From: Epinephelus fuscoguttatus
Taxonomy: Eukaryota > Chordata > Actinopteri > Perciformes > Serranidae
Assembly: GCF_011397635.1 (NCBI RefSeq)
Contig: NC_064763.1
Span: 26,673,437 to 26,737,436, forward strand
Length of the DNA: 64,000 nucleotides
Direction: 5' to 3'
Shown here: positions 1 through 23,718 of the stretch, piece by piece
Numbering within the stretch: the stretch's first letter is position 1
Layout of the letters: each line of letters starts with the position of its first letter
The notes under the pieces: model-generated
Told to the model about the DNA's origin: nothing
Databases searched by the model: none
The model's input: only the letters and a program-made list of their open reading frames with translations
Made by a program: the position numbers and the translations under genes

Positions 1-442
1 CCAATCATCCTCATCAACATACCATCAAAGGAAAACTGACAACTGGAAAGAGCCACATGATGGGTAAATGGCCTTTCACCATGTGCTAAAACAAAGGGCT
101 GTGAACCATTGACACTCACTCACAATGAATGACAAGTCTGTCTACAGATCAGAAGATTCTAGTTTCCACTGGTGGCTAGCTCATAGAAATCTTTAACCCG
201 GAATCACTTGTTCCTCATTTCCAGCGTTCCTCATCTACATACTACATACCTACCTGTGAACCTCTGGGTGTTTCTCCATGTCAAGGCAAGTTCCTCAAAC
301 AAACAAATTTTAAGGATGCTACAATTTTCATAGGTCACACATCATTTAGAAAAAAACCCCATACTGATAAAATAGTAGCAAGGTTTGGATTCAGACTTCC
401 AAACAGACAGTCATAACAAGGAGGCACTCAATAAACCAAGAG

Positions 443-512
443 GCCGTGATCGTATAGAGGTTAGTACTCTGCGTTGTGGCCGCAGCAACCCCGGTTCGAA
501 CTGGTCACGGCA
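443..512 (+). pseudogene. tRNA-His(GTG) copy 1, damaged
   Basis: This copy is 70 nt instead of 72. Two bases are missing on the 3' side of the T arm, just after TTCGAA, so the T stem cannot pair fully. Acceptor, D and anticodon arms are normal. Confidence 0.8.
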
Positions 513-717
513 TCAGTGTGAAGCTGTGCTTAATTCATGTTGTTGCTTAACTTACTCCAATCTGGTCACATGGTTTAGAATTGGACATCTCAAGCTAAGA
601 TCCTGCGTGACGCCCAAATCTTGACCAACATTTTCCACACTTGGCCACCAAGGAAAGAACAAAAGCTTCCATGCAATACTGTGAGAAATGAGCTGTTCCC
701 AAATGTGGCTCAAAGTA

Positions 718-790
718 GGGCTAGTGGCGCAATGGATAACGCGTCTGACTACGGATCAGAAGATTCTAGGTTCGACTCCTGGCTAGCTCG
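718..790 (+). tRNA. tRNA-Arg(ACG) copy 1
   Basis: 73 nt, array consensus. The cloverleaf is complete, with anticodon ACG in loop CTACGGA and T-loop TTCGACT. Acceptor pairs GGGCTAG with CTAGCTC (one G-U), discriminator G. No TTTT follows within about 300 nt. Confidence 0.88.
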
Positions 791-1450
791 TTGAAACCTT
801 TAACTCATAACAATTTGTTCCTCATTTCCAATCATCCTCATCAACATACCATCAAAGGAAAACTGACAACTGGAAAGAGCCACATGATGGGTAAATGGCC
901 TTTCACCATGTGCTAAAACAAAGGGCTGTGAACCATTGACACTCACTCACAATGAATGACAAGTCTGTCTACAGATCAGAAGATTCTAGTTTCCACTGCT
1001 GGCTAGCTCATAGAAACCTTTAACCCGTAATCACTTGTTCCTCATTTCCAGTGTTCCTCATCTACATACTACACACCTACCTGTGAACCTCTGGGTGTTT
1101 CTAAATGTCAAGGAAAGTTCCTCGAACAAACAAATTTTAACAAGTCTGTCTACAGATCAGAAGATTCTAGTTTCCACTGGTGGCTAGCTCATAGAAATCT
1201 TTAACCCGGAATCACTTGTTCCTCATTTCCAGCGTTCCTCATCTACATACTACATACCTACCTGTGAACCTCTGGGTGTTTCTCCATGTCAAGGCAAGTT
1301 CCTCAAACAAACAAATTTTAAGGATGCTACAATTTTCATAGGTCACACATCATTTAGAAAAAAAACCCATACTGATAATATAGTAGCAAGGTTTGGATTC
1401 AGACTTCCAGTTAGTCAGTCATAACAAGGAGGCACTCAATAAACCAAGAG

Positions 1451-1522
1451 GCCGTGATCGTATAGAGGTTAGTACTCTGCGTTGTGGCCACAGCAACCCC
1501 GGTTCGAATCCGGGTCACGGCA
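1451..1522 (+). tRNA. tRNA-His(GTG) copy 2, one stem mismatch
   Basis: 72 nt. The anticodon is GTG in loop TTGTGGC. The 3' anticodon stem reads CACAG instead of CGCAG, giving one C-A mismatch. Other arms are consensus. Confidence 0.8.
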
Positions 1523-1654
1523 TCAGTGTGAAGCTGTGCTTAATTATGCCCCAAATCCTGACCAACATTTTCCACACTTGGCCACCAAGGAAAGAACAAA
1601 AGCTTCCATTCAATACTGTTATAAATGAGCTGTTCCCAATTGTGGCTCAAAGTA

Positions 1655-1727
1655 GGGCTAGTGGCGCAATGGATAACGCGTCTGACTACGGATCAGAAGA
1701 TTCTAGGTTCGACTCCTGGCTAGCTCG
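1655..1727 (+). tRNA. tRNA-Arg(ACG) copy 2
   Basis: 73 nt, identical to the array consensus. The spacer to the preceding His gene is ~100 bp shorter than in other units because of a deletion. Confidence 0.88.
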
Positions 1728-2205
1728 TTGAAACCTTTAACTCATAACAACTTGTTCCTCATTTCCAATCATCCTCATCAACATACCATCAAAGGAAAAC
1801 TGACAACTGGAAAGAGCCACATGATGGGTAAATGGCCTTTCACCATGTGCTAAAACAAAGGGCTGTGAACCATTGACACTCACTCACAATGAATGACAAG
1901 TCTGTCTACAGATCAGAAGATTCTAGTTTCCACTGCTGGCTAGCTCATAGAAACCTTTAACCCGGAATCACTTGTTCCTCATTTCCAGCGTTCCTCATCT
2001 ACATACTACATACCTACCTGTGAACCTCTGGGTGTTTCTAAATGTCAAGGAAAGTTCCTCGAACAAACAAATTTTAAGGATGCTACAATTTTCAGAGGTC
2101 ACACATCATTTAGAAAAAAACCCATACTGATAATATAGTAGCAAGGTTTGGATTCAGACTTCCAAACAGACAGTCATAACAAGGAGGCACTCAATAAACC
2201 AAGAG

Positions 2206-2274
2206 GCCGTGATCGTATAGAGGTTAGTACTCTGCGTTGTGGCCGCAACCCCGGTTCAAATCCGGGTCACGGCA
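2206..2274 (+). pseudogene. tRNA-His(GTG) copy 3, damaged
   Basis: 69 nt. Three bases are lost from the 3' side of the anticodon arm, so that stem cannot form. The T-loop reads TTCAAAT. Confidence 0.8.
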
Positions 2275-2479
2275 TCAGTGTGAAGCTGTGCTTAATTCAT
2301 GTTGTTGCTTAACTTACTCCAATCTGGTCACATGGTTTAGAATTGGACATCTCAAGCTAAGATCCTGCGTGACACCCCAAATCTTGACCAACATTTCCAC
2401 ACTTGGCCACCAAGGAAAGAACAAAAGCTTCCATGCAATACTGTGAGAAATGAGCTGTTCCCAAATGTGGCTCAAAGTA

Positions 2480-2551
2480 GGGCTAGTGGCGCAATGGATA
2501 ACGCGTCTGACTACGGATCAGAAGATTCTAGGTTCGACTCTGGCTAGCTCG
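2480..2551 (+). pseudogene. tRNA-Arg(ACG) copy 3, 1-nt deletion
   Basis: 72 nt. One C is missing from the 3' T stem (CTCTGG instead of CTCCTGG). Copy 9 has the same lesion, which suggests shared descent of the two units. Confidence 0.78.
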
Positions 2552-3028
2552 TTGAAACCTTTAACTCATAACAACTTGTTCCTCATTTCCAATCATCCTC
2601 ATCAACATACCATCAAAGGAAAACTGACAACTGGAAAGAGCCACATGATGGGTAAATGGCCTTTCACCATGTGCTAAAACAAAGGGCTGTGAACCATTGA
2701 CACTCACTCACAATGAATGACAAGTCTGTCTACAGATCAGAAGATTCTAGTTTCCACTGCTGGCTAGCTCATAGAAACCTTTAACCCGAATCACTTGTTC
2801 CTCATTTCCAGTGTTCTCATCTACATACTACATACCTACCTGTGAACCTCTGGGTGTTTCTAAATGTCAAGGAAAGTTCCTCAAACAAACAAATTTTAAG
2901 GACGCTACAATTTTCAGAGGTCACACATCATTTAAAGAAAAAACCCATACTGATAATATAGTAGCAAGATTTGGATTCAGACTTCCAATTAGACAGTCAT
3001 AACAAGGAGGCACTCAATAAACCAAGAG

Positions 3029-3100
3029 GCCGTGATCGTATAGAGGTTAGTACTCTGCGTTGTGGCCACAGCAACCCCGGTTCGAATCCGGGTCACGGCA
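3029..3100 (+). tRNA. tRNA-His(GTG) copy 4, one stem mismatch
   Basis: 72 nt, with the same C-A mismatch in the anticodon stem as copy 2. Otherwise consensus. Confidence 0.8.
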
Positions 3101-3305
3101 TCAGTGTGAAGCTGTGCTTAATTCATGTTGTTGCTTAACTTACTCCAATCTGCTCAAATGGTTTAGAATTGGACATCTCAAGCTAAGATCCTGCATGATG
3201 CCCCAAATCTGACCAACATTTTCCACACTTGGCCACCAAGGAAATAACAAAAGCTTCCATGCAATACTGTGAGAAATGAGCTGTTCCCAAATGTGGCTCA
3301 AAGTA

Positions 3306-3378
3306 GGGCTAGTGGCGCAATGGATAACGCGTCTGACTACGGATCAGAAGATTCTAGGTTCGACTCCTGGCTAGCTCG
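3306..3378 (+). tRNA. tRNA-Arg(ACG) copy 4
   Basis: 73 nt, array consensus. The first downstream T run is at 3684-3688, about 306 nt after the gene. Confidence 0.88.
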
Positions 3379-3857
3379 TTGAAATCTTTAACTCATAACA
3401 ACTTGTTCCTCATTTCCAATCATCCTCATCAACATACCATCAAAGGAAAACTGACAACTGGAAAGAGCCACATGATGGGTAAATGGCCTTTCACCATGTG
3501 CTAAAACAAAGGGCTGTGAACCATTGACACTCACTCACAATGAATGACAAGTCTGTCTACAGATCAGAAGATTCTAGTTTCCACTGCTGGCTAGCTCATA
3601 GAAACCTTTAACCCGTAATTACTTGTTCCTCATTTCCAGTGTTCCTCATCTACATACTACATACCTACCTGTGAACCTCTGGGTTTTTCTCCATGTCAGG
3701 GAAAGTTCCTCAAACAAACAAATTTTAAGGATGCTACAATTTTCATAGGTCACACATCATTTAGAGAAAAAACCCATACTGATAATATAGTAGCAAGGTT
3801 TGGATTCAGACTTCCAAACAGACAGTCATAACAAGGAGGCACTCAATAAACCAAGAG

Positions 3858-3929
3858 GCCGTGATCGTATAGAGGTTAGTACTCTGCGTTGTGGCCGCAG
3901 CAACCCCGGTTCGAATCCGGGTCACGGCA
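3858..3929 (+). tRNA. tRNA-His(GTG) copy 5
   Basis: 72 nt, array consensus. Anticodon stem is CTGCG/CGCAG, loop TTGTGGC, T-loop TTCGAAT, acceptor GCCGTGA with TCACGGC. The first downstream TTTT is at 4049-4052, about 120 nt away. Confidence 0.9.
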
Positions 3930-4135
3930 TCAGTGTGAAGCTGTGCTTAATTCATGTTGTTGCTTAACTTACTCCAATCTGGTCACATGGTTTAGAATTG
4001 GACATCTCAAGCTAAGATCCTGCGTGACGCCCCAAATCTTGACCAACATTTTCCACACTTGGCCACCAAGGAAAGAACAAAAGCTTCCATGCAATACTGT
4101 GAGAAATGAGCTGTTCCCAAATGTGGCTCAAAGTA

Positions 4136-4208
4136 GGGCTAGTGGCGCAATGGATAACGCGTCTGACTACGGATCAGAAGATTCTAGGTTCGACTCCTGG
4201 CTAGCTCG
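4136..4208 (+). tRNA. tRNA-Arg(ACG) copy 5
   Basis: 73 nt, array consensus. The first downstream TTTT is at 4553-4556, about 345 nt away, beyond the decayed Arg remnant. Confidence 0.88.
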
Positions 4209-4868
4209 TTGAAACCTTTAACTCATAACAACTTGTTCCTCATTTCCAATCATCCTCATCAACATACCATCAAAGGAAAACTGACAACTGGAAAGAGCCA
4301 CATGATGGGTAAATGGCCTTTCACCATGTGCTAAAACAAAGGGCTGTGAACCATTGACACTCACTCACAATGAATGACAAGTCTGTCTACAGATCAGAAG
4401 ATTCTAGTTTCCACTGCTGGCTAGCTCATAGAACCCTTTAACCCGTAATCACTTGTTCCTCATTTCCAGTGTTCCTCATCTACATACTACATACCTACCT
4501 GTGAACCTCTGGGTGTTTCTAAATGTCAAGGAAAGTTCCTCGAACAAACAAATTTTAACAAGTCTGTCTACAGATCAGACGATTCTAGTTTCCACTGGTG
4601 GCTAGCTCATAGAAATCTTTAACCCGGAATCACTTGTTCCTCATTTCCAGCGTTCCTCATCTACATACTACATACCTACCTGTGAACCTCTGGGTGTTTC
4701 TAAATGTCAAGGAAAGTTCCTCGAACAAACAAATTTTAAGGATGCTACAATTTTCATAGGTCACACATCATTTAGAAAAAAAACCCATACTGATAATATA
4801 GTAGCAAGGTTTGGATTCAGACTTCCAATTAGACAGTCATAACAAGGAGGAACTTAATAAACCAAGAG

Positions 4869-4940
4869 GCCGTGATCGTATAGAGGTTAGTACTCTGCGT
4901 TGTGGCCGCAGCAACCCCGGTTCGAATCCGGGTCACGGCA
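4869..4940 (+). tRNA. tRNA-His(GTG) copy 6
   Basis: 72 nt, identical to the array consensus. Confidence 0.9.
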
Positions 4941-5146
4941 TCAGTGTGAAGCTGTGCTTAATTCATGTTGTTGCTTAACTTACTCCAATCCGGTCACATG
5001 GTTTAGAATTGGACATCTCAAGCTAAGATCCTGCATGATGCCCCAAATCCTGACCAACATTTTCCACACTTGGCCACCAAGGAAAGAACAAAAGCTTCCA
5101 TGCAATACTGTGAGAAATGAGCTGTTCCCAAATGTGGCTCAAAGTA

Positions 5147-5219
5147 GGGCTAGTGGCGCAATGGATAATGCGTCTGACTACGGATCAGAAGATTCTTGGT
5201 TCGACTCCTGGCTAGCTCG
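5147..5219 (+). tRNA. tRNA-Arg(ACG) copy 6, two substitutions
   Basis: 73 nt. One C-to-T change lies in the D loop (ATAATGCG). One A-to-T change lies in the 5' T stem (TCTTGG) and breaks a pair. Confidence 0.78.
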
Positions 5220-5693
5220 TTGAAACCTTTAACTCATAACAACTTGTTCCTCATTTCCAATCATCCTCATCAACATACCATCAAAGGAAAACTGACAACT
5301 GGAAAGAGCCACATGATGGGTAAATGGCCTTTCACCATGTGCTAAAACAAAGGGCTGTGAACCATTGACACTCACAATGAATGACAAGTCTGTCTACAGA
5401 TCAGAAGATTCTAGTTTCCACTGCTGGCTAGCTCATAGAAACCTTTAACCCGTAATCACTTGTTCCTCATTTCCAGTGTTCCTCATCTACATACTACATA
5501 CCTACCTGTGAACCTCTGGGTTTTTCTCCATGTCAAGGAAAGTTCCTCAAACAAACAAATTTTAAGGATGCTACAATTTTCAGAGGTCACACATCATTTA
5601 AAGAAAAAACCATACTGATAATATAGTAGCAAGGTTTGGATTCAGACTTCCAAACAGACAGTCATAACAAGGAGGCACTCAATAAACCAAGAG

Positions 5694-5765
5694 GCCGTGA
5701 TCGTATAGAGGTTAGTACTCTGCGTTGTGGCCGCAGCAACCCCGGTTCGAATCCGGGTCACGGCA
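5694..5765 (+). tRNA. tRNA-His(GTG) copy 7
   Basis: 72 nt, identical to the array consensus. Confidence 0.9.
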
Positions 5766-5971
5766 TCAGTGTGAAGCTGTGCTTAATTCATGTTGTTGCT
5801 TAACTTACTCCAATCCGGTCACATGGTTTAGAATTGGACATCTCAAGCTAAGATCCTGCGTGATGCCCCAAATCTTGACCAACATTTTCCACACTTGGCC
5901 ACCAAGGAAAGAACAAAAGCTTCCATGCAATACTGTGAGAAATGAGCTGTTCCCAAATGTGGCTCAAAATA

Positions 5972-6044
5972 GGGCTAGTGGCACAATGGATAACGCGTCT
6001 GACGACGGATCAGAAGATTCTAGGTTCGACTCCTGGCTAGCTCG
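5972..6044 (+). pseudogene. tRNA-Arg(ACG) copy 7, U33 lost
   Basis: 73 nt. The anticodon loop reads CGACGGA, so the near-universal U33 is G. The A box has G to A (GGCACAATGG). It is probably not a working tRNA. Confidence 0.75.
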
Positions 6045-6523
6045 TTGAAACTTTCAACTCATAACAACTTGTTCCTCATTTCCAATCATCCTCATCAACA
6101 TACCATCAAAGGAAAACTGACAACTGGAAAGAGCCACATGATGGGTAAATGGCCTTTCACCATGTGCTAAAACAAAGGGCTGTGAACCATTGACACTCAC
6201 TCACAATGAATGACAAGTCTGTCTACAGATCAGAAGATTCTAGTTTCCACTGCTGGCTAGCTCATAGAAACCTTTAACCCGGAATCACTTGTTCCTCATT
6301 TCCAGTGTTCCTCATCTACATACTACATACCTACCTGTGAACCTCTGGGTTTTTCTCCATGTCAAGGAAAGTTCCTCAAACAAACAAATTTTAAGGATGC
6401 TACAATTTTCAGAGGTCACACATCATTTAAAGAAAAAAACCATACTGATAATATAGTAGCAAGGTTTGGATTCAGACTTCCAAACAGACAGTCATAACAA
6501 GGAGGCACTCAATAAACCAAGAG

Positions 6524-6593
6524 GCCGTGATCGTATAGAGGTTAGTACTCTGCGTTGTGGCGCAGCAACCCCGGTTCGAATCGGGTCACGGCA
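6524..6593 (+). pseudogene. tRNA-His(GTG) copy 8, damaged
   Basis: 70 nt, with two single-base deletions: one C after the anticodon (GGCGCAG) and one C in the 3' T stem (AATCGGG). Confidence 0.8.
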
Positions 6594-6796
6594 TCAGTGT
6601 GAAGCTGTGCTTAATTCATGTTGTTGCTTAACTTACTCCAATGGTCACATGGTTTAGAATTGGACATCTCAAGCTAAGATCCTGCGTGATGCCCAAATCT
6701 TGACCAACATTTTCCACACTTGGCCACCAAGGAAAGAACAAAAGCTTCCATGCAATACTGTGAGAAATGAGCTGTTCCCAAATGGGGCTCAAAGTA

Positions 6797-6869
6797 GGGC
6801 TAGTGGCGCAATGGATAACGCGTCTGACTACGGATCAGAAGATTCTAGGTTCGACTCCTGGCTAGCTCG
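6797..6869 (+). tRNA. tRNA-Arg(ACG) copy 8
   Basis: 73 nt, array consensus. Confidence 0.88.
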
Positions 6870-7347
6870 TTGAAACCTTTAACTCATAACAACTTGTTCC
6901 TCATTTCCAATCATCCTCATCAACATACCATCAAAGGAAAACTGACAACTGGAAAGAGCCACATGATGGATAAATGGCCTTTCACCATGTGCTAAAACAA
7001 AGGGCTGTGAACCATTGACACTCACTCACAATGAATGACAAGTCTGTCTACAGATCAGAAGATTCTAGTTTCCACTGCTGGCTAGCTCATAGAAACCTTT
7101 AACCCGAATCACTTGTTCCTCATTTCCAGTGTTCCTCATCTACATACTACAGACCTACCTGTGAACCTCTGGGTTTTTCTCCATGTCAAGGAAAGTTCCT
7201 CAAACAAACAAATTTTAAGGATGCTACAATTTTCAGAGGTCACACATCATTTAAAGAAAAAACCCATACTGATAATATAGTAGCAAGGTTTGGATTCAGA
7301 ACTCCAAACAGACAGTCATAACAAGGAGGCACTCAATAAACCAAGAG

Positions 7348-7418
7348 GCCGTGATCGTATAGAGGTTAGTACTCTGCGTTGTGGCGCAGCAACCCCGGTT
7401 CGAATCCGGGTCACGGCA
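7348..7418 (+). pseudogene. tRNA-His(GTG) copy 9, 1-nt deletion
   Basis: 71 nt. One C is missing at the 3' edge of the anticodon loop, as in copy 8, which shortens the loop or stem. The rest is consensus. Confidence 0.72.
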
Positions 7419-7624
7419 TCAGTGTGAAGCTGTGCTTAATTCATGTTGTTGCTTAACTTACTCCAATCTGGTCACATGGTTTAGAATTGGACATCTCAAG
7501 CTAAGATCCTGCGTGACGCCCCAAATCTTGACCAACATTTTCCACACTTGGCCACCAAGGAAAGAACAAAAGCTTCCATGCAATACTGTGAGAAATGAGC
7601 TGTTCCCAAATGTGGCTCAAAGTA

Positions 7625-7696
7625 GGGCTAGTGGCGCAATGGATAACGCGTCTGACTACGGATCAGAAGATTCTAGGTTCGACTCTGGCTAGCTCG
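7625..7696 (+). pseudogene. tRNA-Arg(ACG) copy 9, 1-nt deletion
   Basis: 72 nt, missing one C in the 3' T stem, the same lesion as copy 3. Confidence 0.78.
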
Positions 7697-8175
7697 TTGA
7701 AACCTTTAACTCATAACAACTTGTTCCTCATTTCCAATCATCCTCATCAACATACCATCAAAGGAAAACTGACAACTGGAAAGAGCCACATGATGGGTAA
7801 ATGGCCTTTCACCATGTGCTAAAACAAAGGGCTGTGAACCATTGACACTCACTCACAATGAATGACAAGTCTGTCTACAGATCAGAAGATTCTAGTTTCC
7901 ACTGCTGGCTAGCTCATAGAAACCTTTAACCCGGAATCACTTGTTCCTCATTTCCAGTGTTCCTCATCTACATACTACATACCTACCTGTGAACCTCTGG
8001 GTTTTTCTCCATGTCAGGGAAAGTTCCTCAAACAAACAAATTTTAAGGATGCTACAATTTTCAGAGGTCACACATCATTTAGAGAAAACACCCATACTGA
8101 TAATATAGTAGCAAGGTTTGGATTCAGACTTCCAAACAGACAGTCATAACAAGGAGGCACTCAATAAACCAAGAG

Positions 8176-8247
8176 GCCGTGATCGTATAGAGGTTAGTAC
8201 TCTGCGTTGTGGCCGCAGCAACCCCGGTTCGAATCCGGGTCACGGCA
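8176..8247 (+). tRNA. tRNA-His(GTG) copy 10
   Basis: 72 nt, identical to the array consensus. Confidence 0.9.
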
Positions 8248-8453
8248 TCAGTGTGAAGCTGTGCTTAATTCATGTTGTTGCTTAACTTACTCCAATCTGG
8301 TCACATGGTTTAGAATTGGACATCTCAAGCTAAGATCCTGCGTGATGCCCCAAATCTTGACCAACATTTTCCACACTTGGCCACCAAGGAAAGAACAAAA
8401 GCTTCCATGCAATACTGTGAGAAATGAGCTGTTCCCAAATGTGGCTCAAAGTA

Positions 8454-8526
8454 GGGCTAGTGGCGCAATGGATAACGCGTCTGACTACGGATCAGAAGAT
8501 TCTAGGTTCGACTCCTGGCTAGCTCG
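8454..8526 (+). tRNA. tRNA-Arg(ACG) copy 10
   Basis: 73 nt, array consensus. Confidence 0.88.
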
Positions 8527-9005
8527 TTGAAACCTTTAACTCATAACAACTTGTTCCTCATTTCCAATCATCCTCATCAACATACCATCAAAGGAAAACT
8601 GACAACTGGAAAGAGCCACATGATGGGTAAATGGCCTTTCACCATGTGCTAAAACAAAGGGCTGTGAACCATTGACACTCACTCACAATGAATGACAAGT
8701 CTGTCTACAGATCAGAAGATTCTAGTTTCCACTGCTGGCTAGCTCATAGAAACCTTTAACCCGTAATCACTTGTTCCTCATTTCCAGTGTTCCTCATCTA
8801 CATACTACATACCTACCTGTGAACCTCTGGGTTTTTCTCCATGTCAAGGAAAGTTCCTCAAACAAACAAATTTTAAGGATGCTACAATTTTCAGAGGTCA
8901 CACATCATTTAAAGAAAAAACCCATACTGATAATATAGTAGCAAGGTTTGGATTCAGACCTCCAAACAGACAGTCATAACAAGGAGGCACTCAATAAACC
9001 AGGAG

Positions 9006-9077
9006 GCCGTGATCGTATAGAGGTTAGTACTCTGCGTTGTGGCCGCAGCAACCCCGGTTCGAATCCGGGTCACGGCA
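9006..9077 (+). tRNA. tRNA-His(GTG) copy 11
   Basis: 72 nt, identical to the array consensus. The 5' flank has one substitution (aggaggcc). Confidence 0.9.
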
Positions 9078-9283
9078 TCAGTGTGAAGCTGTGCTTAATT
9101 CATGTTGTTGCTTAACTTACTCCAATCTGGTCACATGGTTTAGAATTGGACATCTCAAGCTAAGATCCTGCGTGACACCCCAAATCTTGACCAACATTTT
9201 CCACACTTGGCCACCAAGGACAGACCAAAAGCTTCCAGGCAATACTGTGAGAAAGGAGCGGTTCCCACAGGTGGCTCAAAGTA

Positions 9284-9358
9284 GGGCGCGTGGCGCACTG
9301 GATAACGCGCGTCTGACTACGGATCAGAAGATTCTAGGTTCGACTCCTGGCTAGCTCG
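9284..9358 (+). pseudogene. tRNA-Arg(ACG) copy 11, damaged
   Basis: 75 nt. The acceptor strand reads GGGCGCG, the A box is altered (GCACTGG), and GC is inserted before the anticodon arm. It sits in a tract where nearly all differences from the array are A-to-C or T-to-G. Confidence 0.75.
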
Positions 9359-9837
9359 TTGAAACCTTGAACTCATAACAACTTGTTCCTCATTTCCAAT
9401 CATCCTCATCAACATACCATCAAAGGAAAACTGACAACTGGAAAGAGCCACATGATGGGTAAATGGCCTTTCACCATGTGCTAAAACAAAGGGCTGTGAA
9501 CCATTGACACTCACTCACAATGAATGACAAGTCTGTCTACAGATCAGAAGATTCTAGTTTCCACTGCTGGCTAGCTCATAGAAACCTTTAACCCGTAATC
9601 ACTTGTTCCTCATTTCCAGTGTTCCTCATCTACATACTACATACCTACCTGTGAACCTCTGGGTTTTTCTCCATGTCAAGGAAAGTTCCTCAAACAAACA
9701 AATTTTAAGGATGCTACAATTTTCAGAGGTCACACATCATTTAAAGAAAAAACCCATACTGATAATATAGTAGCAAGGTTTGGATTCAGACTTCCAAACA
9801 GACAGTCATAACAAGGAGGCACTCAATAAACCAAGAG

Positions 9838-9909
9838 GCCGTGATCGTATAGAGGTTAGTACTCTGCGTTGTGGCCGCAGCAACCCCGGTTCGAATCCGG
9901 GTCACGGCA
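9838..9909 (+). tRNA. tRNA-His(GTG) copy 12
   Basis: 72 nt, identical to the array consensus. Confidence 0.9.
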
Positions 9910-10114
9910 TCAGTGTGAAGCTGTGCTTAATTCATGTTGTTGCTTAAATTAATCCAATCTGGTAACATGGTTTTGAATTGGACATCTCAAGCTAAGATCC
10001 TGCGTGAGCCCCAAATCTTGACCAACATTTTCCACACTTGGCCACCAAGGAAAGAACAAAAGCTTCCATGCAATACTGTGATAAATGAGCTGTTCCCAAC
10101 TGTGGCTAAAACTA

Positions 10115-10187
10115 GTGCTAGGTGCGCAATGGATAACTCGTCTGTCTACGGATCAGAAGATTCTAGGTTCGACTCCTGGCTAGCTCG
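10115..10187 (+). pseudogene. tRNA-Arg(ACG) copy 12, diverged
   Basis: 73 nt. It begins GTGCTAG, has a rearranged position 8-10 region (GTGCGC), and carries D-arm and anticodon-stem changes (ACTCGTCTGTC). The 3' half from the anticodon onward is consensus. Confidence 0.75.
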
Positions 10188-10666
10188 TTGAAACCTTTAA
10201 CTCATAACAATTTGTTCCTCATTTCCAATCATCCTCATCAACATACCATCAAAGGAAAACTGACAACTGGAAAGAGCCACATGATGGATAAATGGCCTTT
10301 CACCATGTGCTAAAACAAAGGGCTGTGAACCATTGACACTCACTCACAATGAATGACAAGTCTGTCTACAGATCAGAAGATTCTAGTTTCCACTGCTGGC
10401 TAGCTCATAGAAACCTTTAACCCGTAATCACTTGTTCCTCATTTCCAGTGTTCCTCATCTACATACTACATACCTACCTGTGAACCTCTGGGTTTTTCTC
10501 CATGTCAAGGAAAGTTCCTCAAACAAACAAATTTTAAGGATGCTACAATTTTCAGAGGTCACACATCATTTAAAGAAAAAACCCATACTGATAATATAGT
10601 AGCAAGGTTTGGATTCAGACTTCCAAACAGACAGTCATAACAAGGAGGCACTCAATAAACCAAGAG

Positions 10667-10738
10667 GCCGTGATCGTATAGAGGTTAGTACTCTGCGTTG
10701 TGGCCGCAGCAACCCCGGTTCGAATCCGGGTCACGGCA
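10667..10738 (+). tRNA. tRNA-His(GTG) copy 13
   Basis: 72 nt, identical to the array consensus. Confidence 0.9.
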
Positions 10739-10944
10739 TCAGTGTGAAGCTGTGCTTAATTCATGTTGTTGCTTAACTTACTCCAATCTGGTCACATGGT
10801 TTAGAATTGGACATCTCAAGCTAAGATCCTGCGTGACGCCCCAAATCTTGACCAACATTTTCCCCATTTGGCCACCAAGGAAAGAACAAAAGCTTCCATG
10901 CAATACTGTGAGAAATGAGCTGTTCCCAAATGTGGCTCAAAGTA

Positions 10945-11017
10945 GGGCTAGTGGCGCAATGGATAACGCGTCTGACTACGGATCAGAAGATTCTAGGTTC
11001 GACTCCTGGCTAGCTCG
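10945..11017 (+). tRNA. tRNA-Arg(ACG) copy 13
   Basis: 73 nt, array consensus. Confidence 0.88.
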
Positions 11018-11496
11018 TTGAAATCTTTAACTCATAACAACTTGTTCCTCATTTCCAATCATCCTCATCAACATACCATCAAAGGAAAACTGACAACTGG
11101 AAAGAGCCACATGATGGATAAATGGCCTTTCACCATGTGCTAAAACAAAGGGCTGTGAACCATTGACACTCACTCACAATGAATGACAAGTCTGTCTACA
11201 GATCAGAAGATTCTAGTTTCCACTGCTGGCTAGCTCATAGAAACCTTTAACCCGTAATCACTTGTTCCTCATTTCCAGTGTTCCTCATCTACATACTACA
11301 TACCTACCTGTGAACCTCTGGGTTTTTCTCCATGTCAAGGAAAGTTCCTCAAACAAACAAATTTTAAGGATGCTACAATTTTCAGAGGTCACACATCATT
11401 TAAAGAAAAAACCCATACTGATAATATAGTAGCAAGGTTTGGATTCAGACTTCCAATTAGACAGTCATAACAAGGAGGCACTCAATAAACCAAGAG

Positions 11497-11568
11497 GCCG
11501 TGATCGTATAGAGGTTAGTACTCTGCGTTGTGGCCGCAGCAACCCCGGTTCGAATCCGGGTCACGGCA
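11497..11568 (+). tRNA. tRNA-His(GTG) copy 14
   Basis: 72 nt, identical to the array consensus. Confidence 0.9.
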
Positions 11569-11774
11569 TCAGTGTGAAGCTGTGCTTAATTCATGTTGTT
11601 GCTTAACTTACTCCAATCTGCTCAAATGGTTTAGAATTGGACATCTCAAGCTAAGATCCTGCGTGACGCCCCAAATCTTGACCAACATTTTCCACACTTG
11701 GCCACCAAGGAAAGAACAAAAGCTTCCATGCAATACTGTGAGAAATGAGCTGTTCCCAAATGTGGCTCAAAGTA

Positions 11775-11847
11775 GGGCTAGTGGCGCAATGGATAATGCG
11801 TCTGACTACGGATCAGAAGATTCTAGGTTCGACTCCTGGCTAGCTCG
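11775..11847 (+). tRNA. tRNA-Arg(ACG) copy 14
   Basis: 73 nt with one D-loop C-to-T change (ATAATGCG), which should not disturb pairing. Confidence 0.86.
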
Positions 11848-12326
11848 TTGAAATCTTTAACTCATAACAACTTGTTCCTCATTTCCAATCATCCTCATCA
11901 ACATACCATCAAAGGAAAACTGACAACTGGAAAGAGCCACATGATGGGTAAATGGCCTTTCACCATGTGCTAAAACAAAGGGCTGTGAACCATTGACACT
12001 CACTCACAATGAATGACAAGTCTGTCTACAGATCAGAAGATTCTAGTTTCCACTGCTGGCTAGCTCATAGAAACCTTTAACCCGTAATCACTTGTTCCTC
12101 ATTTCCAGTGTTCCTCATCTACATACTACATACCTACCTGTGAACCTCTGGGTGTTTCTAAATGTCAAGGAAAGTTCCTCAAACAAACAAATTTTAAGGA
12201 TGCTACAATTTTCAGAGGTCACACATCATTTAGAAAAAAACCCCATACTGATAATATAGTAGCAAGGTTTGGATTCAGACTTCCAATTAGACAGTCATAA
12301 CAAGGAGGCACTCAATAAACCAAGAG

Positions 12327-12398
12327 GCCGTGATCGTATAGAGGTTAGTACTCTGCATTGTGGCTGCAGCAACCCCGCTTCGAATCCGGGTCACGGCA
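12327..12398 (+). tRNA. tRNA-His(GTG) copy 15, compensatory stem change
   Basis: 72 nt. The last anticodon-stem pair has changed from G-C to A-T on both sides (CTGCA/TGCAG), so pairing is kept. A G-to-C change in the T stem (CGCTTCG) weakens the B box and breaks one pair. Confidence 0.78.
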
Positions 12399-12604
12399 TC
12401 AGTGTGAAGCTGTGCTTAATTCATGTTGTTGCTTAACTTACTCCAATCTGGTCACATGGTTTAGAATTGGACATCTCAAGCTAAGATCCTGCGTGACGCC
12501 CCAAATCTTGACCAACATTTTCCACACTTGGCCACCAAGGAAAGAACAAAAGCTTCCATGCAATACTGTGAGAAATGAGCTGTTCCCAAATGTGGCTCAA
12601 AGTA

Positions 12605-12677
12605 GGGCTAGTGGCGCAATGGATAACGCGTCTGACTACGGATCAGAAGATTCTAGGTTCGACTCCTGGCTAGCTCG
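12605..12677 (+). tRNA. tRNA-Arg(ACG) copy 15
   Basis: 73 nt, array consensus. Confidence 0.88.
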
Positions 12678-13155
12678 TTGAAACCTTTAACTCATAACAA
12701 CTTGTTCCTCATTTCCAATCATCCTCATCAACATACCATCAAAGGAAAACTGACAACTGGAAAGAGCCACATGATGGATAAATGGCCTTTCACCATGTGC
12801 TAAAACAAAGGGCTGTGAACCATTGACACTCACTCACAATGAATGACAAGTCTGTCTACAGATCAGAAGATTCTAGTTTCCACTGCTGGCTAGCTCATAG
12901 AAACCTTTAACCCGTAATCACTTGTTCCTCATTTCCAGTGTTCCTCATCTACATACTACACACCTACCTGTGAACCTCTGGGTTTTCTCCATGTCAAGGA
13001 AAGTTCCTCAAACAAACAAATTTTAAGGATGCTACAATTTTCAGAGGTCACACATCATTTAAAGAAAAAACCCATACTGATAATATAGTAGCAAGGTTTG
13101 GATTCAGACTTCCAATTAGACAGTCATAACAAGGAGGCACTCAATAAACCAAGAG

Positions 13156-13227
13156 GCCGTGATCGTATAGAGGTTAGTACTCTGCGTTGTGGCCGCAGCA
13201 ACCCCGGTTCGAATCCGGGTCACGGCA
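13156..13227 (+). tRNA. tRNA-His(GTG) copy 16
   Basis: 72 nt, array consensus. The spacer just after it (13,236-13,310) carries a cluster of transversions. Confidence 0.9.
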
Positions 13228-13433
13228 TCAGTGTGATGCTGTGCTTATTTCATGTTGTTGGTTAAGTTACTCCTTTCTGGTCACTTGGTTTAGAATTGTA
13301 CTTCTCAAGCTAAGATCCTGCGTGACACCCCAAATCCTGACCAACATTTTCCACACTTGGCCACCAAGGAAAGAACAAAAGCTTCCATGCAATACTGTGA
13401 GAAATGAGCTGTTCCCAAATGTGGCTCAAAGTA

Positions 13434-13506
13434 GGGCTAGTGGCGCAATGGATAACGCGTCTGACTACGGATCAGAAGATTCTAGGTTCGACTCCTGGCT
13501 AGCTCG
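13434..13506 (+). tRNA. tRNA-Arg(ACG) copy 16
   Basis: 73 nt, array consensus. Confidence 0.88.
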
Positions 13507-13985
13507 TTGAAACCTTTAACTCATAACAACTTGTTCCTCATTTCCAATCATCCTCATCAACATACCATCAAAGGAAAACTGACAACTGGAAAGAGCCACA
13601 TGATGGGTAAATGGCCTTTCACCATGTGCTAAAACAAAGGGCTGTGAACCATTGACACTCACTCACAATGAATGACAAGTCTGTCTACAGATCAGAAGAT
13701 TCTAGTTTCCACTGCTGGCTAGCTCATAGAAACCTTTAACCCGGAATCACTTGTTCCTCATTTCCAGTGTTCCTCATCTACATACTACATACCTACCTGT
13801 GAACCTCTGGGTGTTTCTAAATGTCAAGGAAAGTTCCTCAAACAAACAAATTTTAAGGATGCTACAATTTTCATAGGTCACACATCATTTAGAAAAAAAA
13901 CCCATACTGATAATATAGTAGCAAGGTTTGGATTCAGACTTCCAATTAGACAGTCATAACAAGGAGGCACTCACTAAACCAAGAG

Positions 13986-14056
13986 GCCGTGATCGTATAG
14001 AGGTTAGTACTCTGCGTTGTGGCCGCAGCAACCCCGGTTCGAACTGGGTCACGGCA
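13986..14056 (+). pseudogene. tRNA-His(GTG) copy 17, T-arm deletion
   Basis: 71 nt. The T arm reads TTCGAACTGGG, one base short, resembling copy 1. The other arms are intact. Confidence 0.72.
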
Positions 14057-14263
14057 TCAGTGTGAAGCTGTGCTTAATTCATGTTGCTTAACTTACTCCA
14101 ATCTGGTCACATGGTTTAGAATTGGACATCTCAAGCTAAGATCCTGCGTGATGATGCCCCAAATCCTTGACCAACATTTTCCACACTTGTCCACCAAGTA
14201 AAGAACAAAAGCTTCCATGCAATACTGTGAGAAATGAGCTGTTCCCAAATGTGGCTCAAAGTA

Positions 14264-14336
14264 GGGCTAGTGGCGCAATGGATAACGCGTCTGACTACGG
14301 ATCAGAAGATTCTAGGTTCGACTCCTGGCTAGCTCG
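14264..14336 (+). tRNA. tRNA-Arg(ACG) copy 17
   Basis: 73 nt, array consensus. Confidence 0.88.
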
Positions 14337-14815
14337 TTGAAACCTTTAACTCATAACAACTTGTTCCTCATTTCCAATCATCCTCATCAACATACCATCA
14401 AAGGAAAACTGACAACTGGAAAGAGCCACATGATGGGTAAATGGCCTTTCACCATGTGCTAAAACAAAGGGCTGTGAACCATTGACACTCACTCACAATG
14501 AATGACAAGTCTGTCTACAGATCAGAAGATTCTAGTTTCCACTGCTGGCTAGCTCATAGAAACCTTTAACCCGTAATCACTTGTTCCTCATTTCCAGTGT
14601 TCCTCATCTACATACTACATACCTACCTGTGAACCTCTGGGTGTTTCTAAATGTCAAGGAAAGTTCCTCGAACAAACAAATTTTAAGGATGCTACAATTT
14701 TCATAGGTCACACATCATTTAGAAAAAAAACCCATACTGATAATATAGTAGCAGGGTTTGGATTCAGACTTCCAAACAGACAGTCATAACAAGGAGGCAC
14801 TCAATAAACCAAGAG

Positions 14816-14884
14816 GCCGTGATCGTATAGAGGTTAGTACTCTGCGTTGTGGCAGCAACCCCGGTTCGAATCCGTGTCACGGCA
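14816..14884 (+). pseudogene. tRNA-His(GTG) copy 18, damaged
   Basis: 69 nt. Three bases are lost from the 3' anticodon stem and one G-to-T change lies in the T stem (TCCGTG). Confidence 0.8.
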
Positions 14885-15090
14885 TCAGTGTGAAGCTGTG
14901 CTTAATTCATGTTGTTGCTTAACTTACTCCAATCCGGTCACATGGTTTAGAATTGGACATCTCAAGCTAAGATCCTGCATGATGCCCCAAATCCTGACCA
15001 ACATTTTCCACACTTGGCCACCAAGGAAAGAACAAAAGCTTCCATGCAATACTGTGAGAAATGAGCTGTTCCCAAATGTGGCTCAAAGTA

Positions 15091-15163
15091 GGGCTAGTGG
15101 CGCAATGGATAACGCGTCTGACTACGGATCAGAAGATTCTAGGTTCGACTCCTGGCTAGCTCA
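15091..15163 (+). tRNA. tRNA-Arg(ACG) copy 18, discriminator A
   Basis: 73 nt. All arms are consensus, but the discriminator base is A instead of G. Confidence 0.84.
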
Positions 15164-15642
15164 TTGAAATCTTTAACTCATAACAACTTGTTCCTCATTT
15201 CCAATCATCCTCATCAACATACCATCAAAGGAAAACTGACAACTGGAAAGAGCCACATGATGGGTAAATGGCCTTTCACCATGTGCTAAAACAAAGGGCT
15301 GTGAACCATTGACACTCACTCACAATGAATGACAAGTCTGTCTACAGATCAGAAGATTCTAGTTTCCACTGCTGGCTAGCTCATAGAAACCTTTAACCCG
15401 TAATCACTTGTTCCTCATTTCCAGTGTTCCTCATCTACATACTACATACCTACCTGTGAACCTCTGGGTGTTTCTAAATGTCAAGGAAAGTTCCTCAAAC
15501 AAACAAATTTTAAGGATGCTACAATTTTCAGAGGTCACACATCATTTAAAGAAAAAACCCATACTGATAATATAGTAGCAAGGTTTGGATTCAGACCTCC
15601 AAACAGACAGTCATAACAAGGAGGCACTCAATAAACCAAGAG

Positions 15643-15715
15643 GCCGTGATCGTATAGAGGTTAGTACTCTGCGTTGTGGCCGCAGCAACCCCGGTTCGAA
15701 TCCGGGTCCGCGGCA
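15643..15715 (+). pseudogene. tRNA-His(GTG) copy 19, acceptor damaged
   Basis: 73 nt. One inserted base and a substitution in the 3' acceptor strand (TCCGCGGC instead of TCACGGC) disrupt pairing with GCCGTGA. Confidence 0.74.
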
Positions 15716-15921
15716 TCAGTGTGAAGCTGTGCTTAATTCATGTTGTTGCTTAACTTACTCCAATCTGGTCACATGGTTTAGAATTGGACATCTCAAGCTA
15801 AGATCCTGCGTGACGCCCCAAATCTTGACCAACATTTTCCACACTTGGCCACCAAGGAAAGAACAAAAGCTTCCATGCAATACTGTGAGAAATGAGCTGT
15901 TCCCAAATGTGGCTCAAAGTA

Positions 15922-15994
15922 GGGCTAGTGGCGCAATGGATAACGCGTCTAACTACGGATCAGAAGATTCTAGGTTCGACTCCTGGCTAGCTCA
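15922..15994 (+). tRNA. tRNA-Arg(ACG) copy 19, stem mismatch
   Basis: 73 nt. A G-to-A change in the 5' anticodon stem (TCTAA) creates an A-C mismatch, and the discriminator is A. This is the last array copy before the right edge. Confidence 0.75.
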
Positions 15995-16591
15995 TTGAAA
16001 TCTTTAGCTCATAACAACTTGTTCCTCATTTCCAATCATCCTTATCAACATACCATCAAAGGAAAACTGACAACTGGAAAGAGCCACATGATGGATAAAT
16101 GGCCTTTCACCATGTGCTAAAACAAAGGGCTGTGAACCATTGACACTCACTCACAATGAATGACAAGTCTGTCTACAGATCAGAAGATTCTAGTTTCCAC
16201 TGCTGGCTAGCTCATAGAAACCTTTAACCCGTAATCACTTGTTCCTCATTTCCAGTGTTCCTCATCTACATACTACATACCTACCTGTGAACCTCTGGGT
16301 GTTTCTCAATGTAAAGGAAGGCTCCTCAAACTAACAAATTTCAAGAATGCTACAATTTTCACAGGTCACACATCATTTAGAAAAAACTCATACTGACATG
16401 TTAGTGTTCTTTTTCTTTCCCCTTTTGTGTAACTTGCTCATCATCTTTTTCCTTTAAACGAAAATTTGTCCCTGAACGGGTGTAAAAAGGCAACTACTGG
16501 TATCAAGTGTTGAACAACAACAAAGGAGGACAAATCTTTGTTTGAAAATAAAAAGTGACAAAAAAGGGTCTCTGTGCCTGTGTGTTGGTAC

Positions 16592-19500
16592 CTGCAGCAT
16601 TGCCATGCTGTCATCAGGCTTGCCTCTCTGTGCTTCCAGTTCTGCACCTTCGACCATCAAAAGGGCTTGAATATCCAGTTCTCCCCATCGTGCACATTCA
16701 TGAAGACCCTCCTGCAACACCTGAGCTGCCTCCTCATTGATGTTCTTCCCTTGAAAATACAATCACGTTTGTCACACAGAGAGACTAAATATGCAATATT
16801 CAAAATCATATCACTAACCTATATGCAGCTAATGAAGTCTCTGGTTTTTTGTTTCATTAGTTAGCCATTTGACGTTACTGTAAACCCTTCGCTTTTTAAT
16901 ACTCTAATACTGTACTCAAATATTCTGGTAACACTGGGCACTCTGGGCATAATATACCAAACCTTGTTATGTGAAACAATGTAATGAAATAACGTAAAGT
17001 AGTCCTCCACGTATTTTTCAAGTGTACACCCAGTGCCAGTTTGCATATTAGGAAAATGTGTCTAACCCTTGTTTTCACATTTGTAATCCTTGTGACATTA
17101 GTCCAACTGTTTAAAACATACAATACATAAATCAGAAAAAAGTGAGAGCAGCACAAAGCATGATCAGACCTGAGACAAGAGCAGCAGCACCAGGGATTTG
17201 TGCAGCCAGGCTGCGGACCAGAGCCAGGCGGCACTGCAGCCACAGAGGAATTCCAATTCTCTCACCGGCCTCAACTGCTCTGGGACAGTCTCCATGAAAG
17301 GGGTTTGAAAAACCACAATCTTTAGTACCCTGTAGACAGGATATTACACATATTACCAAATGCATATTCATAAACCATGTACAATAAATCTCTATTCTAC
17401 TGCCCCAGTTATGTTCATATTTCACATTAAATGAAAAAAGGTGACATTATCACATTTTGGCACTTTCAGATTGGTTTCTGCAGTTTCAATACATGTTCTA
17501 CTTTTGGTTGTAATGTCGTCATGTTCTGTAATGCTGACAACACAATACACAGATAGGGATTTCATATGCTTGGATTTTGTTCCAAAAACAACTATTTAAT
17601 TCTGCATCTATCTATACAAACATCCTACTCGTTCACTTCCAGTCCGGGCATGTAGGACCTCAGATGCAGGTTTCTGAGCGCCAGGTAAGATTCCTCTCAT
17701 GATTACAGGAGACGTCTCCATCAGCACCAAGGATGAAATTGCCGTCTCAGAACTAAAGGAGGATGATAAAATAGTTAGGATGGTCAGGACATACAGACAT
17801 GAGCATGTTAATACACGCACAGCACACATGAATAAGGCCAACGTACCTAAGTGCAGCACGTCCTTGTTGCAGGTATAGGTCTGCCTTTAGAAGATTGGAC
17901 TCTATCACCAGTTCTAGGTTAACCACTTCATTACAGGACTGAGAAGTGAGCTGCTGAGAAATTGAGTGCAACAAGGAGGATGCTCCTTCTAGCAAAATGA
18001 ACTACATCAGAGGAAATGACAGAAAGTCAACATAAAAAAGTTAGAATCAACAGTAAGAATAAAACAACTCAATGCTGATATTACAGTTAGTGGCAAGCCC
18101 ATGAAGTAAAGATGTATTGAAAAATCCAAATAAATATTACCTTTATCCTTTCTGCTGTGAGCTTCTCCTCTGTATCAAAGGTCAACACTTTTGGCTTTTC
18201 TGTCTGTAGACAGGAGCCCTCAGTGTCCAGCCTGTCCTGTTCATGGGGTTCTGAGTCCACCAGACAAGTTGTTGAGCTGGCACAAGCTTCTCCTTCAGCA
18301 TCATCTGAAAGACATTGAAAGAACAAAGCGAACACAAACCAATAGGACATGGCTAGGGCTGCCACTAACGATTATTTTCATTGTCGACTAATCTGTCGAT
18401 TATTTCTTCGATTAGTTGACTAATCATTTCATCGAAAAATGTGTTAAAATGTTGAAAAATGTCGGTCTGTCTCGCCCAAACCCCAAAATTACGTCATCTA
18501 ATGTCTTGTTTCATACTCATGCTGAAGGGTTTCAGTTCACTGTCATGGGAGAGTGTGTAAAGCTGCCAATATTTGAACGTAAGAAGCTGCAATAGGAGTA
18601 TTTTGGGGTACTTTTATAGTACTTTTCTATGAAAAATTACTCAAACCGATTAGTCGACTACTAAAATAGTCACCGATTATTTTAATAGTCGATTAGTCAT
18701 CGATTAGTCGACTAATCGTGGCAGCTCTAGACATGGCTAAAAGCAAAATAATAACCTTATGAACAAGTTTGTTTCGATCACACTCCCTCTTGACTTCAAC
18801 CCTTTATTTACTTTTCTCACTTCCATTTCTCTTCTTGTGCACTAACCTGAACTGCCAATTAGAGTGATTTCATTCACCTACAGGCTCCATTGTCTCTGAT
18901 GCCAATTCAACATTCTGAATCAGCTGAAAAAAAGTCAAAAAGGGCTGTCAAGGACTGTCAACGGCCGATGGGGGCCAACACAGCGGGAAACACCAGGGTG
19001 TCTAAGGCAACAGACAGTCACGGACGGCGCAACACTGACAGACTGCCGACTGTTGGCCTGGTGTGTCAGGGCCTTTACAGGCCAGTGCATATGCAGATGT
19101 AGTCTCACAATGCAGTGAAAGACTCTTATTTAGCCTTACAACACTAAAGGTGGTTACTCATATCCAAAAATTATAAATAACCTTTAACTATTTTACCTAT
19201 TACATAACCATTCTTAGACATAAATTGGTTGATTTTTCATGTTTATTTAAAAAGATACACAGACCCTTTTGGATGCTGAACATCTGGTGAAATGAAGAAC
19301 ACAAAAGGTCATGTGGTTATTTATATTAGTTTAACAGTATGTATCTTACCCTATTGTCTGTTTATTAATATAACCTTATTTGGTTAAACATGTCACATGA
19401 TGCAAATAATTAACCCAACATAAAAAACAGAGAGAAGAAAGTACACTTGCATACAGACCTGGAACAGAGGGGCTATGTACAGTGTTGCTGAGTGCCAGGA

Positions 19501-22500: not shown

Positions 22501-23164
22501 GAAATCAACCAGGCTTGCTGAATGGCTGAGACTTCTGCTCTGACAGTGCTGCAACTGTGTCGCAAAGCCTGGAAAGAGGCACAAATTAATGCAAACAGTG
22601 AAGATTTCAAACAGCTGTTGTGTGAGTGAGTGTGTGTGTGTCAAATCAAAAAGCCCTGAACTCACAGGGATTTGTGTATGCAAGAAGTAGCAGCAGTAAT
22701 GAGCGGCTATGCTGGAAGACATGCAGACAATGTGGTCTTCTCTCAAGAGCTTGACGGTAAGAGCTCAGCGTGTCTTCCACATCCAGAGGAACGCAAACAA
22801 GGGACATGGAGCGCTGTTTCTCTGAATCTTAGACACAGAACAAATATGCATGAAAACATTCTGCACAATTCATACCATAGTATCTCAACATTCCACCATT
22901 AACTATGTTTTTTTTTTAATATTTGGAACATTTCAATTATAAGGCAGCCATCACAATTTACAAAAGCCTACAGACTATTGTTTGTGTGATTAAAATATTT
23001 CGTCATGATAAGACACATGGCTGGCACTTCAAACCTTTAAGATCAACTACATCTGGTTGTGTAGAGTTTGTGAGTGCTGCTTTTTTGCGATTGGGCAGCT
23101 GCTGTGCAGGGTAAGGGCTCCGCCCAATGAGCAGCTGGGAGTCTGCGTAGCTTCTGTAAGTTAC
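16592..23164 (-). CDS. cfap54: cfap54 exons 39-54 (last exons in window)
   Basis: Exons in transcript order: 23035-23164, 22666-22821, 22359-22568, 21718-21805, 21379-21549, 21210-21276, 20854-21039, 20675-20761, 20462-20581, 20057-20104, 19459-19600, 18141-18304, 17847-18001, 17629-17752, 17170-17329, 16592-16749. Intron 41 holds the lone tRNA-Arg and intron 49 a hAT MITE. Exon 54 ends CTGCAG|GTACCA with a normal donor in phase 0. I see no acceptor-exon-stop between 16,396 and 16,591, so the next exon must be left of the array. Confidence 0.85.
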
Positions 23165-23680
23165 CTAAAATAAAGAAAAGAAAGCACCAAATATATATGC
23201 ATACAGTACAATACACATAATGCATAAGTGTACACAAAAGAGATTAATGATTTAGTTATTACCCTTTCAATGACTGACTTTCTAGATTCTATGGAACTGA
23301 ATGATAACTGTTTAAGCTCTCAAGACATTCTCAATCGAAAATGAAGAGGAAAAACCTGAAAATAATTTGGGTTTCTCTTTAATTTTGCAAAGTAATGAAA
23401 TATCCCATGGCACTGGTTAAAAGGTATTTGTTTAATTGGCTTGCTTTTCATTGTTACCCTTTGATTTTGACTATCATACAGTTTTTAAGTGTGTGTGTGT
23501 GGGTATGTGCCACCTCCTTTCCAGTGGCCTTCTGTGTCTTGACATGGTGTGGTTGAGGAACTGGTGGTCCTCCAAAAGAACTAATTCTTTCGAGCAGCCT
23601 CCTCTGAGCATGGACTAGTAGAGGAGTTACGGTCAAGGCATAACGTTCTCTGCGACAGACATAAAGATACAGGCACACAT

Positions 23681-23718
<38 letters not shown>

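Follow-up and report, generated by a model that had tools for sequence, protein, structure and literature searches.

A 64,000-nucleotide stretch of the Epinephelus fuscoguttatus genome (contig NC_064763.1 of assembly GCF_011397635.1, positions 26,673,437 to 26,737,436 of the forward strand; hereafter, the window) opens with a tandem array in which transfer RNA (tRNA) genes for histidine, tRNA-His(GTG), and for arginine, tRNA-Arg(ACG), alternate within a repeated unit of 830 bp. The reading that we favor, and regard as reasonably likely, is that of a satellite-like array that grew, through unequal exchange, out of a formerly functional pair of His and Arg genes and in which most copies are now poor producers of tRNA. 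The array is made up of repeats with mosaic variation, fusion units and a decayed left edge, all at a single locus; its genes have no near terminator of four T (T4), and no constraint on them is measurable within the array.

A tandem His/Arg array at a single locus

Between positions 443 and 15994 of the window, ARAGORN reports 38 tRNA loci, all on the + strand and alternating between His and Arg, which it types as 15 His, 4 'tRNA-???' and 19 Arg(ACG). BLAST with the consensus genes as queries returns 19 His and 19 Arg loci in the same window, and the two methods agree with an earlier note on this DNA, which had described 19 loci of each kind alternating on one strand in a satellite-like unit of about 830 bp, the very length of the unit consensus. 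The order within the unit is His, spacer, Arg, spacer, relict Arg (psiArg) and spacer, with His at consensus positions 1-72, Arg at 279-351 and the relict at 499-571, and the GC content is about 43%. Unit length in the window varies from 754 to 1011 bp (n=19), the last unit being cut by the array edge. The same note had placed the array at positions 1 to 16396. Its right edge holds, and the true left edge lies some 1.8 kb beyond the start of the window: the 100 kb to the left contain two further units and one decayed unit at the left edge, with an array His as the single tRNA called there by ARAGORN. In the assembly, the whole array thus comprises 21 units over about 18.2 kb, at 26.6717-26.6898 Mb of C12, and is flanked by non-array sequence on both sides; the Arg genes of the two units left of the window are partly masked and were left out of the counts. 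From unit to unit the His-Arg spacers show 89-100% likeness, and the genes are 93-100% identical to the consensus, so that the likeness across the array is far above chance expectation. The decayed left-edge unit is 84% alike to the array. With a head-to-tail unit that combines His and Arg tRNA genes in one orientation, the locus qualifies as a tandem mixed tRNA array.

Genome searches covered the 1.047-Gb assembly (26 contigs), with the best candidates only being scored. All matches to the His-Arg spacer (22/22) fall at the array locus, one for each of the 21 units and one for the decayed unit at the edge. The Arg-His spacer recovers the array locus, a tRNA-Arg gene on C18, a solo tRNA-Arg(ACG) gene within the window (Table 1), a short match on C16 and hits to tRNA genes, and a search with the whole unit adds an Arg relative on C1 (76% alike) and, on C2, a decayed His copy that is 73% alike over unit positions 13-213, which include part of the spacer. 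Eight consecutive T follow this C2 gene at a distance of 17 nt. These searches found no second His/Arg array elsewhere, and the fetched parts of the His clusters on C10 and C17 hold no Arg. We also considered an origin from a short interspersed nuclear element (SINE) or a transposon, and rejected it because the spacers, instead of being dispersed in many copies, have few diverged relatives elsewhere among the candidates scored, single ones on C2, C18, C16 and C1.

Variation among the units bears the marks of recombination. The 19 units differ pairwise by 2.2% on average (range 0.6-4.2%), no two of them being identical, as against 24-30% between the array and the flanks of the solo gene, and when informative sites with two states are taken in pairs, 153 of the 300 pairs contain every one of the four possible combinations. 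One variant, 658 T, is present in 9 of 10 consecutive units. In two units of the window, a 181-bp piece made of psiArg and its 3' flank is present in an extra tandem copy at the same place, which yields two additional psiArg copies at 1138 and 4556; a third unit, left of the window, also has an extra piece of 181 bp. When the letters of the first of these units are compared by reading, one majority-type and one left-edge-type piece are seen to be joined, an arrangement that resembles the outcome of unequal exchange. Units that are alike, variants distributed in mosaics and a decayed edge are the traits of satellite-like concerted evolution, and together with the fusion units and the single locus they sustain the earlier suggestion of a satellite kept uniform by recombination.

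Three units (9006-9837, 9838-10666 and 13156-13985) also carry clusters of 9-12 private substitutions, and all 11 private substitutions of the first of them, U11, are T:A>G:C.

Gene integrity, terminators and constraint

The genes of the array are a mixture of sound and damaged copies. The earlier counts of nine His and ten Arg copies identical to the consensus were reproduced exactly (9/19 and 10/19), the remaining 10 of 19 His copies are damaged, and both genes are intact in 4 of 19 units. Damage to His is confined to gene positions 31-67 and includes indels in 7 of 19 copies (8 events); at positions 2206, 6524, 7348 and 14816 it affects the anticodon arm, and these are the loci typed as 'tRNA-???'. 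Damaged His copies sit towards the array edges (permutation p 0.01), a trend that damaged Arg copies do not follow (p 0.74). The Rfam gathering score for RF00005 (cut-off 29 bits) is reached by 35 of the 38 loci, the exceptions being the His at 2206, 6524 and 14816. Consensus copies, which make up 19 of the 38, lie well above this threshold, as expected of ordinary RNA polymerase III (Pol III) tRNA genes, with 59.0 bits for His (60.9 for His genes elsewhere) and 57.5 bits for Arg (57.6 elsewhere); low scores in these copies, which the earlier note had named as grounds for refutation, did not occur.

Both genes can be told apart from their counterparts in the rest of the genome. A search with a 35-base His core in which base 16 was left open gave 37 exact matches, with A at that base in 12/12 array copies and T in 25/25 copies elsewhere. 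Among exact-core copies, the A-for-T base of the D loop, previously put forward as a marker, does mark the array, and the array His is, judged by its letters, a distinct isodecoder (A16). The array Arg consensus has T5-A68 in the acceptor stem, as opposed to C5-G68 in nine canonical Arg genes elsewhere, and this changed pair, in which pairing is kept, is common to the array, solo and C18 genes.

What follows the genes is less ordinary. None of the 38 array genes has a T4 within 40 nt, whereas 9/9 canonical Arg and 26/27 His genes elsewhere do (9/9 and 23/27, respectively, within 15 nt). Fisher tests of this contrast give 5e-12 and 1e-7, with copies treated as independent despite their shared ancestry in the array. 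The His set (n=27) leaves out the decayed C2 copy with its T run, the Arg set leaves out the C18 and C1 relatives, which have no near T4 (9/11 with them), and the solo gene, which has a T4, also stands outside the Arg set. The usual distance to T4 in the array is about 120 nt for His and 302-362 nt for Arg. A weaker signal, TVTTT, is found within 40 nt of 1/19 His and 5/19 Arg array genes; termination at such signals was measured at 20-50% in a SINE study (PMC8466645). The T4 that shortly follows ordinary Pol III tRNA genes is missing from that place in the array.

Nor are the genes less variable than the spacers within the array: the ratio of gene to spacer variation is 0.93 (bootstrap 95% 0.61-1.29), or 0.87 (0.57-1.23) when the noisy units U11, U12 and U16 and the edge unit U19 are removed. 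No indels were seen in 28 matched His loci elsewhere, these loci having been picked by similarity, which disfavors damaged copies. A His-only cluster on C17 has 7/7 identical genes, each followed by a T4 after six nt, in surroundings that are 65-94% alike (300-nt stretches, ungapped). The rest of the genome contains at least 27 His and 9 canonical Arg genes. Terminators, variation and indels point away from working genes, and the proposal that the array could alter the supply of His and Arg tRNA is thereby weakened, with 0/38 T4, genes that vary like spacers and indels in 7/19 His copies against it, and the intact consensuses in its favor.

A different picture emerges when the array is compared with its relatives. 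The array consensus departs from the solo gene at 1/73 gene sites, as opposed to 43/162 flank sites (p 4e-7), so that here the gene is indeed less variable than what surrounds it. The surroundings of the solo gene (21987-22276) have 76-79% identity to the array, and a TTTT begins 8 nt past its end. The C18 gene is 71/73 identical, and its 3' flank is 88% alike to the Arg-His spacer. The motif found 3' of the gene is CTTT in the array Arg, the relict, the left-edge Arg and the C1 relative, TATTT in the C18 gene and TTTT in the solo gene. The relict itself starts 232 bp after the Arg start and retains a 60-bp match, at 83-85% identity, to Arg positions 13-72; ARAGORN calls no tRNA at psiArg in the window. 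While the relict has decayed by 15-17%, the Arg and His consensuses of the same unit have stayed sound. Since the gene consensuses are intact and their flanks have drifted, the unit that founded the array probably had working genes before the recent amplification. The contrast between gene and flank, taken with the decay of the relict, would imply that the founder was under selection until recently, or that selection on the array average persists.

Unit positions 376-571 (e.g. window positions 9383-9578), of which the relict is the sole gene-related content, are nearly invariant, with 2 of 89 distinct variants where about 21 would be expected (15 units compared, borders picked after looking). 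On C1 (43733743-43737855, at 2047-2119) there is an Arg-derived tRNA-like sequence with an ATG anticodon and an Rfam score of 32, which ARAGORN calls His.

Table 1. Coordinates of the array, its components and other features (window positions unless a contig is given)
Feature	Position	Strand	Basis or remark
Tandem array	1..16396	+	830-bp unit; partial unit 1-442, then 19 units
19 tRNA-His(GTG) loci	443..15715 (first 443-512, last 15643-15715)	+	ARAGORN, Rfam, BLAST
19 tRNA-Arg(ACG) loci	718..15994 (first 718-790, last 15922-15994)	+	ARAGORN, Rfam, BLAST
Relict Arg (psiArg)	123..16213 (first 123-182, last 16154-16213)	+	one per unit
Unit with tandem 181-bp extra copy	959..1321	+	psiArg and its 3' flank
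Second unit with 181-bp extra copy	4377..4739	+	same place in the unit
Solo tRNA-Arg(ACG)	22076..22148	+	72/73 identical to array consensus; ARAGORN, Rfam
CFAP54 fragments	17161..26634	-	match to human CFAP54 (PDB 9ijj_H), E 2e-19
His-only cluster	C17:21372000-21381999, 2475-7649	one strand	several genes ~625 bp apart

Possible roles: passengers, suppliers or boundary

The course of events that we propose would begin with a once-functional pair of His and Arg tRNA genes, of which the solo gene and the C18 copy would be Arg-side relatives. Unequal crossing-over and gene conversion would have multiplied this pair head to tail until it reached 21 units. The promoters inside intact genes presumably still allow Pol III to start, and most transcripts would then read through some 120 nt (His) or 300 nt (Arg), with low output per copy as the result. 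The genes would now be largely passengers, owing their uniformity to recombination and not to selection on each copy.

Several points weigh against this account. The gene consensuses come close in score to the genes elsewhere. Damaged copies need not prevent concerted evolution from preserving a functional average, so that low constraint per copy is no proof of silence. Because copies inherit it, the absence of T4 from all 38 genes represents one or two ancestral states and not 38 events. Moreover, the C18 gene has no T4 in spite of its near-identity, and with CTTT in psiArg, the left-edge Arg and the C1 relative, the Arg gene may have remained undamaged over a long period in the absence of a T4. 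Some of the gene damage may be assembly error, and the clustered private substitutions in three units possibly look like assembly or read errors. Finally, neighboring units are only weakly alike, with a Mantel r of 0.14 over all sites (reached by 504/5000 shuffles) and of 0.18 with informative sites only (reached by 151/5000). By these tests, variants spread only weakly from unit to neighboring unit.

The main rival to a passenger role is a specialized and possibly maternal supply, with the array being expressed in one setting, such as the oocyte, the early embryo or a given tissue, and RNase Z trimming the readthrough. We judge it rather unlikely. The consensus genes are structurally sound, the A16 His is a distinct isodecoder and the T5-A68 Arg is still paired; maternal isodecoders of zebrafish are described as coming from repetitive regions (PMC11417395), there is a precedent in Arabidopsis (PMC12308677), and the damage to His at the array edges, which has no counterpart in Arg, recalls the damaged copies found outside the Arabidopsis core. 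Against this stand the absence of T4 near the array genes, a within-array constraint that is not measurable and the presence of at least 27 His and 9 canonical Arg genes elsewhere. A more specific form of the proposal, in which the recent array would make its A16 His and T5-A68 Arg isodecoders as a maternal supply, by way of long 3' trailers and RNase Z trimming, seems to us quite unlikely; the T5-A68 Arg isodecoder is otherwise seen in a few single genes only.

A role in chromatin would dispense with mature tRNA altogether. The B boxes would bind TFIIIC and the array would be a putative insulator or boundary between CFAP54 and a DIXDC1-like gene with CH and DIX domains, next to both of which it is placed. 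The human tRNA repeat at 1q23.3 has been proposed as a boundary element (PMC4041453), but the part of the gene that contains the B box is damaged in several His copies, and we deem such a function improbable. More improbable still is an artefact of assembly, in which a shorter array would have come out of assembly or polishing with too many units or with some spurious variation. The clustered private substitutions, with the uniform change in U11, and the many small indels do resemble read errors. Nonetheless, no two of the 19 units are identical, the difference being 0.6% at least, variants common to several units are arranged as mosaics, unique sequence borders the array on either side, and this assembly shows no indel in the 28 His loci compared outside the array.

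Surroundings and known tandem tRNA arrays

The array lies on the 3' side of CFAP54 and on the opposite strand. With a query of hand-picked fragments joined with X, the match to CFAP54 is strong near 24-24.9 kb, and weak but colinear near 26.3 and 17.2 kb. The DIXDC1-like gene is located left of the array. A C-terminal CFAP54 exon was not found among the exon candidates left of the array, one set of which matched designed ankyrin proteins, and the array may lie either inside a CFAP54 intron or downstream of the gene. Within the CFAP54 region, an element with terminal inverted repeats at about 18345-18745 resembles, by eye, a miniature inverted-repeat transposable element. Further along the window there are a degenerate 21-bp tandem repeat of about 21 copies (51040-51517) and an open frame (53237-53671) resembling what we take to be the end of a fish long interspersed nuclear element.

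The array amounts to a compact natural experiment on the fate of tRNA genes inside a satellite, in which two tRNA genes and a relict have reached 21 copies next to a solo relative with a T4. The A16 base sets the His tRNA of the array apart from the 25 exact-core copies found in the rest of the genome, and tRNA gene counts based on cloverleaf score may overstate the number of working genes.

Tandem mixed tRNA arrays are already known, and the His/Arg array is a further member of this class; in the literature searched, and among the matches listed, no fish His/Arg tRNA array is named. An oocyte tRNA repeat is known from Xenopus. In teleosts, the clustered share of tRNA genes and pseudogenes is given as 65% for zebrafish and 87% for stickleback, and the passages available on frequent zebrafish pairs list K-N, K-S and R-T and name no His/Arg array (PMC2888827; PMC11417395). 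Maternally deposited isodecoders in zebrafish are reported to be encoded in highly repetitive regions (PMC11417395). The Entamoeba arrays are also tandem, with up to five tRNA genes per unit, but they hold almost all tRNA genes of the organism and have short tandem repeats between genes, unlike the array described here (PMC2652664). The variable number tandem repeat at human 1q23.3 is likewise a vertebrate tandem repeat with tRNA genes in its units; its unit, however, is GC-rich and 7.3 kb long, with 9-43 units per allele and CTCF binding, as compared with 0.83 kb and about 43% GC here (PMC4041453). In the same genome, the C17 cluster resembles the array in having clustered His genes on one strand, several of them about 625 bp apart, and displays the signs of selection (identical genes, a T4 after each, diverged surroundings) that are missing from the array. 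The Arabidopsis Ser-Tyr-Tyr (SYY) cluster on chromosome 1 likewise repeats, in tandem, a unit whose tRNA genes serve two amino acids; its clustered isodecoders differ from dispersed ones, as they do here, and its core region has flanks richer in variant and pseudogene copies, again in likeness to the His/Arg array (PMC12308677). The two differ in that SYY is a plant cluster of Ser and Tyr genes, and in that the His/Arg array lacks near terminators. SYY is described as silenced in most tissues and active in root cap cells (PMC12308677).

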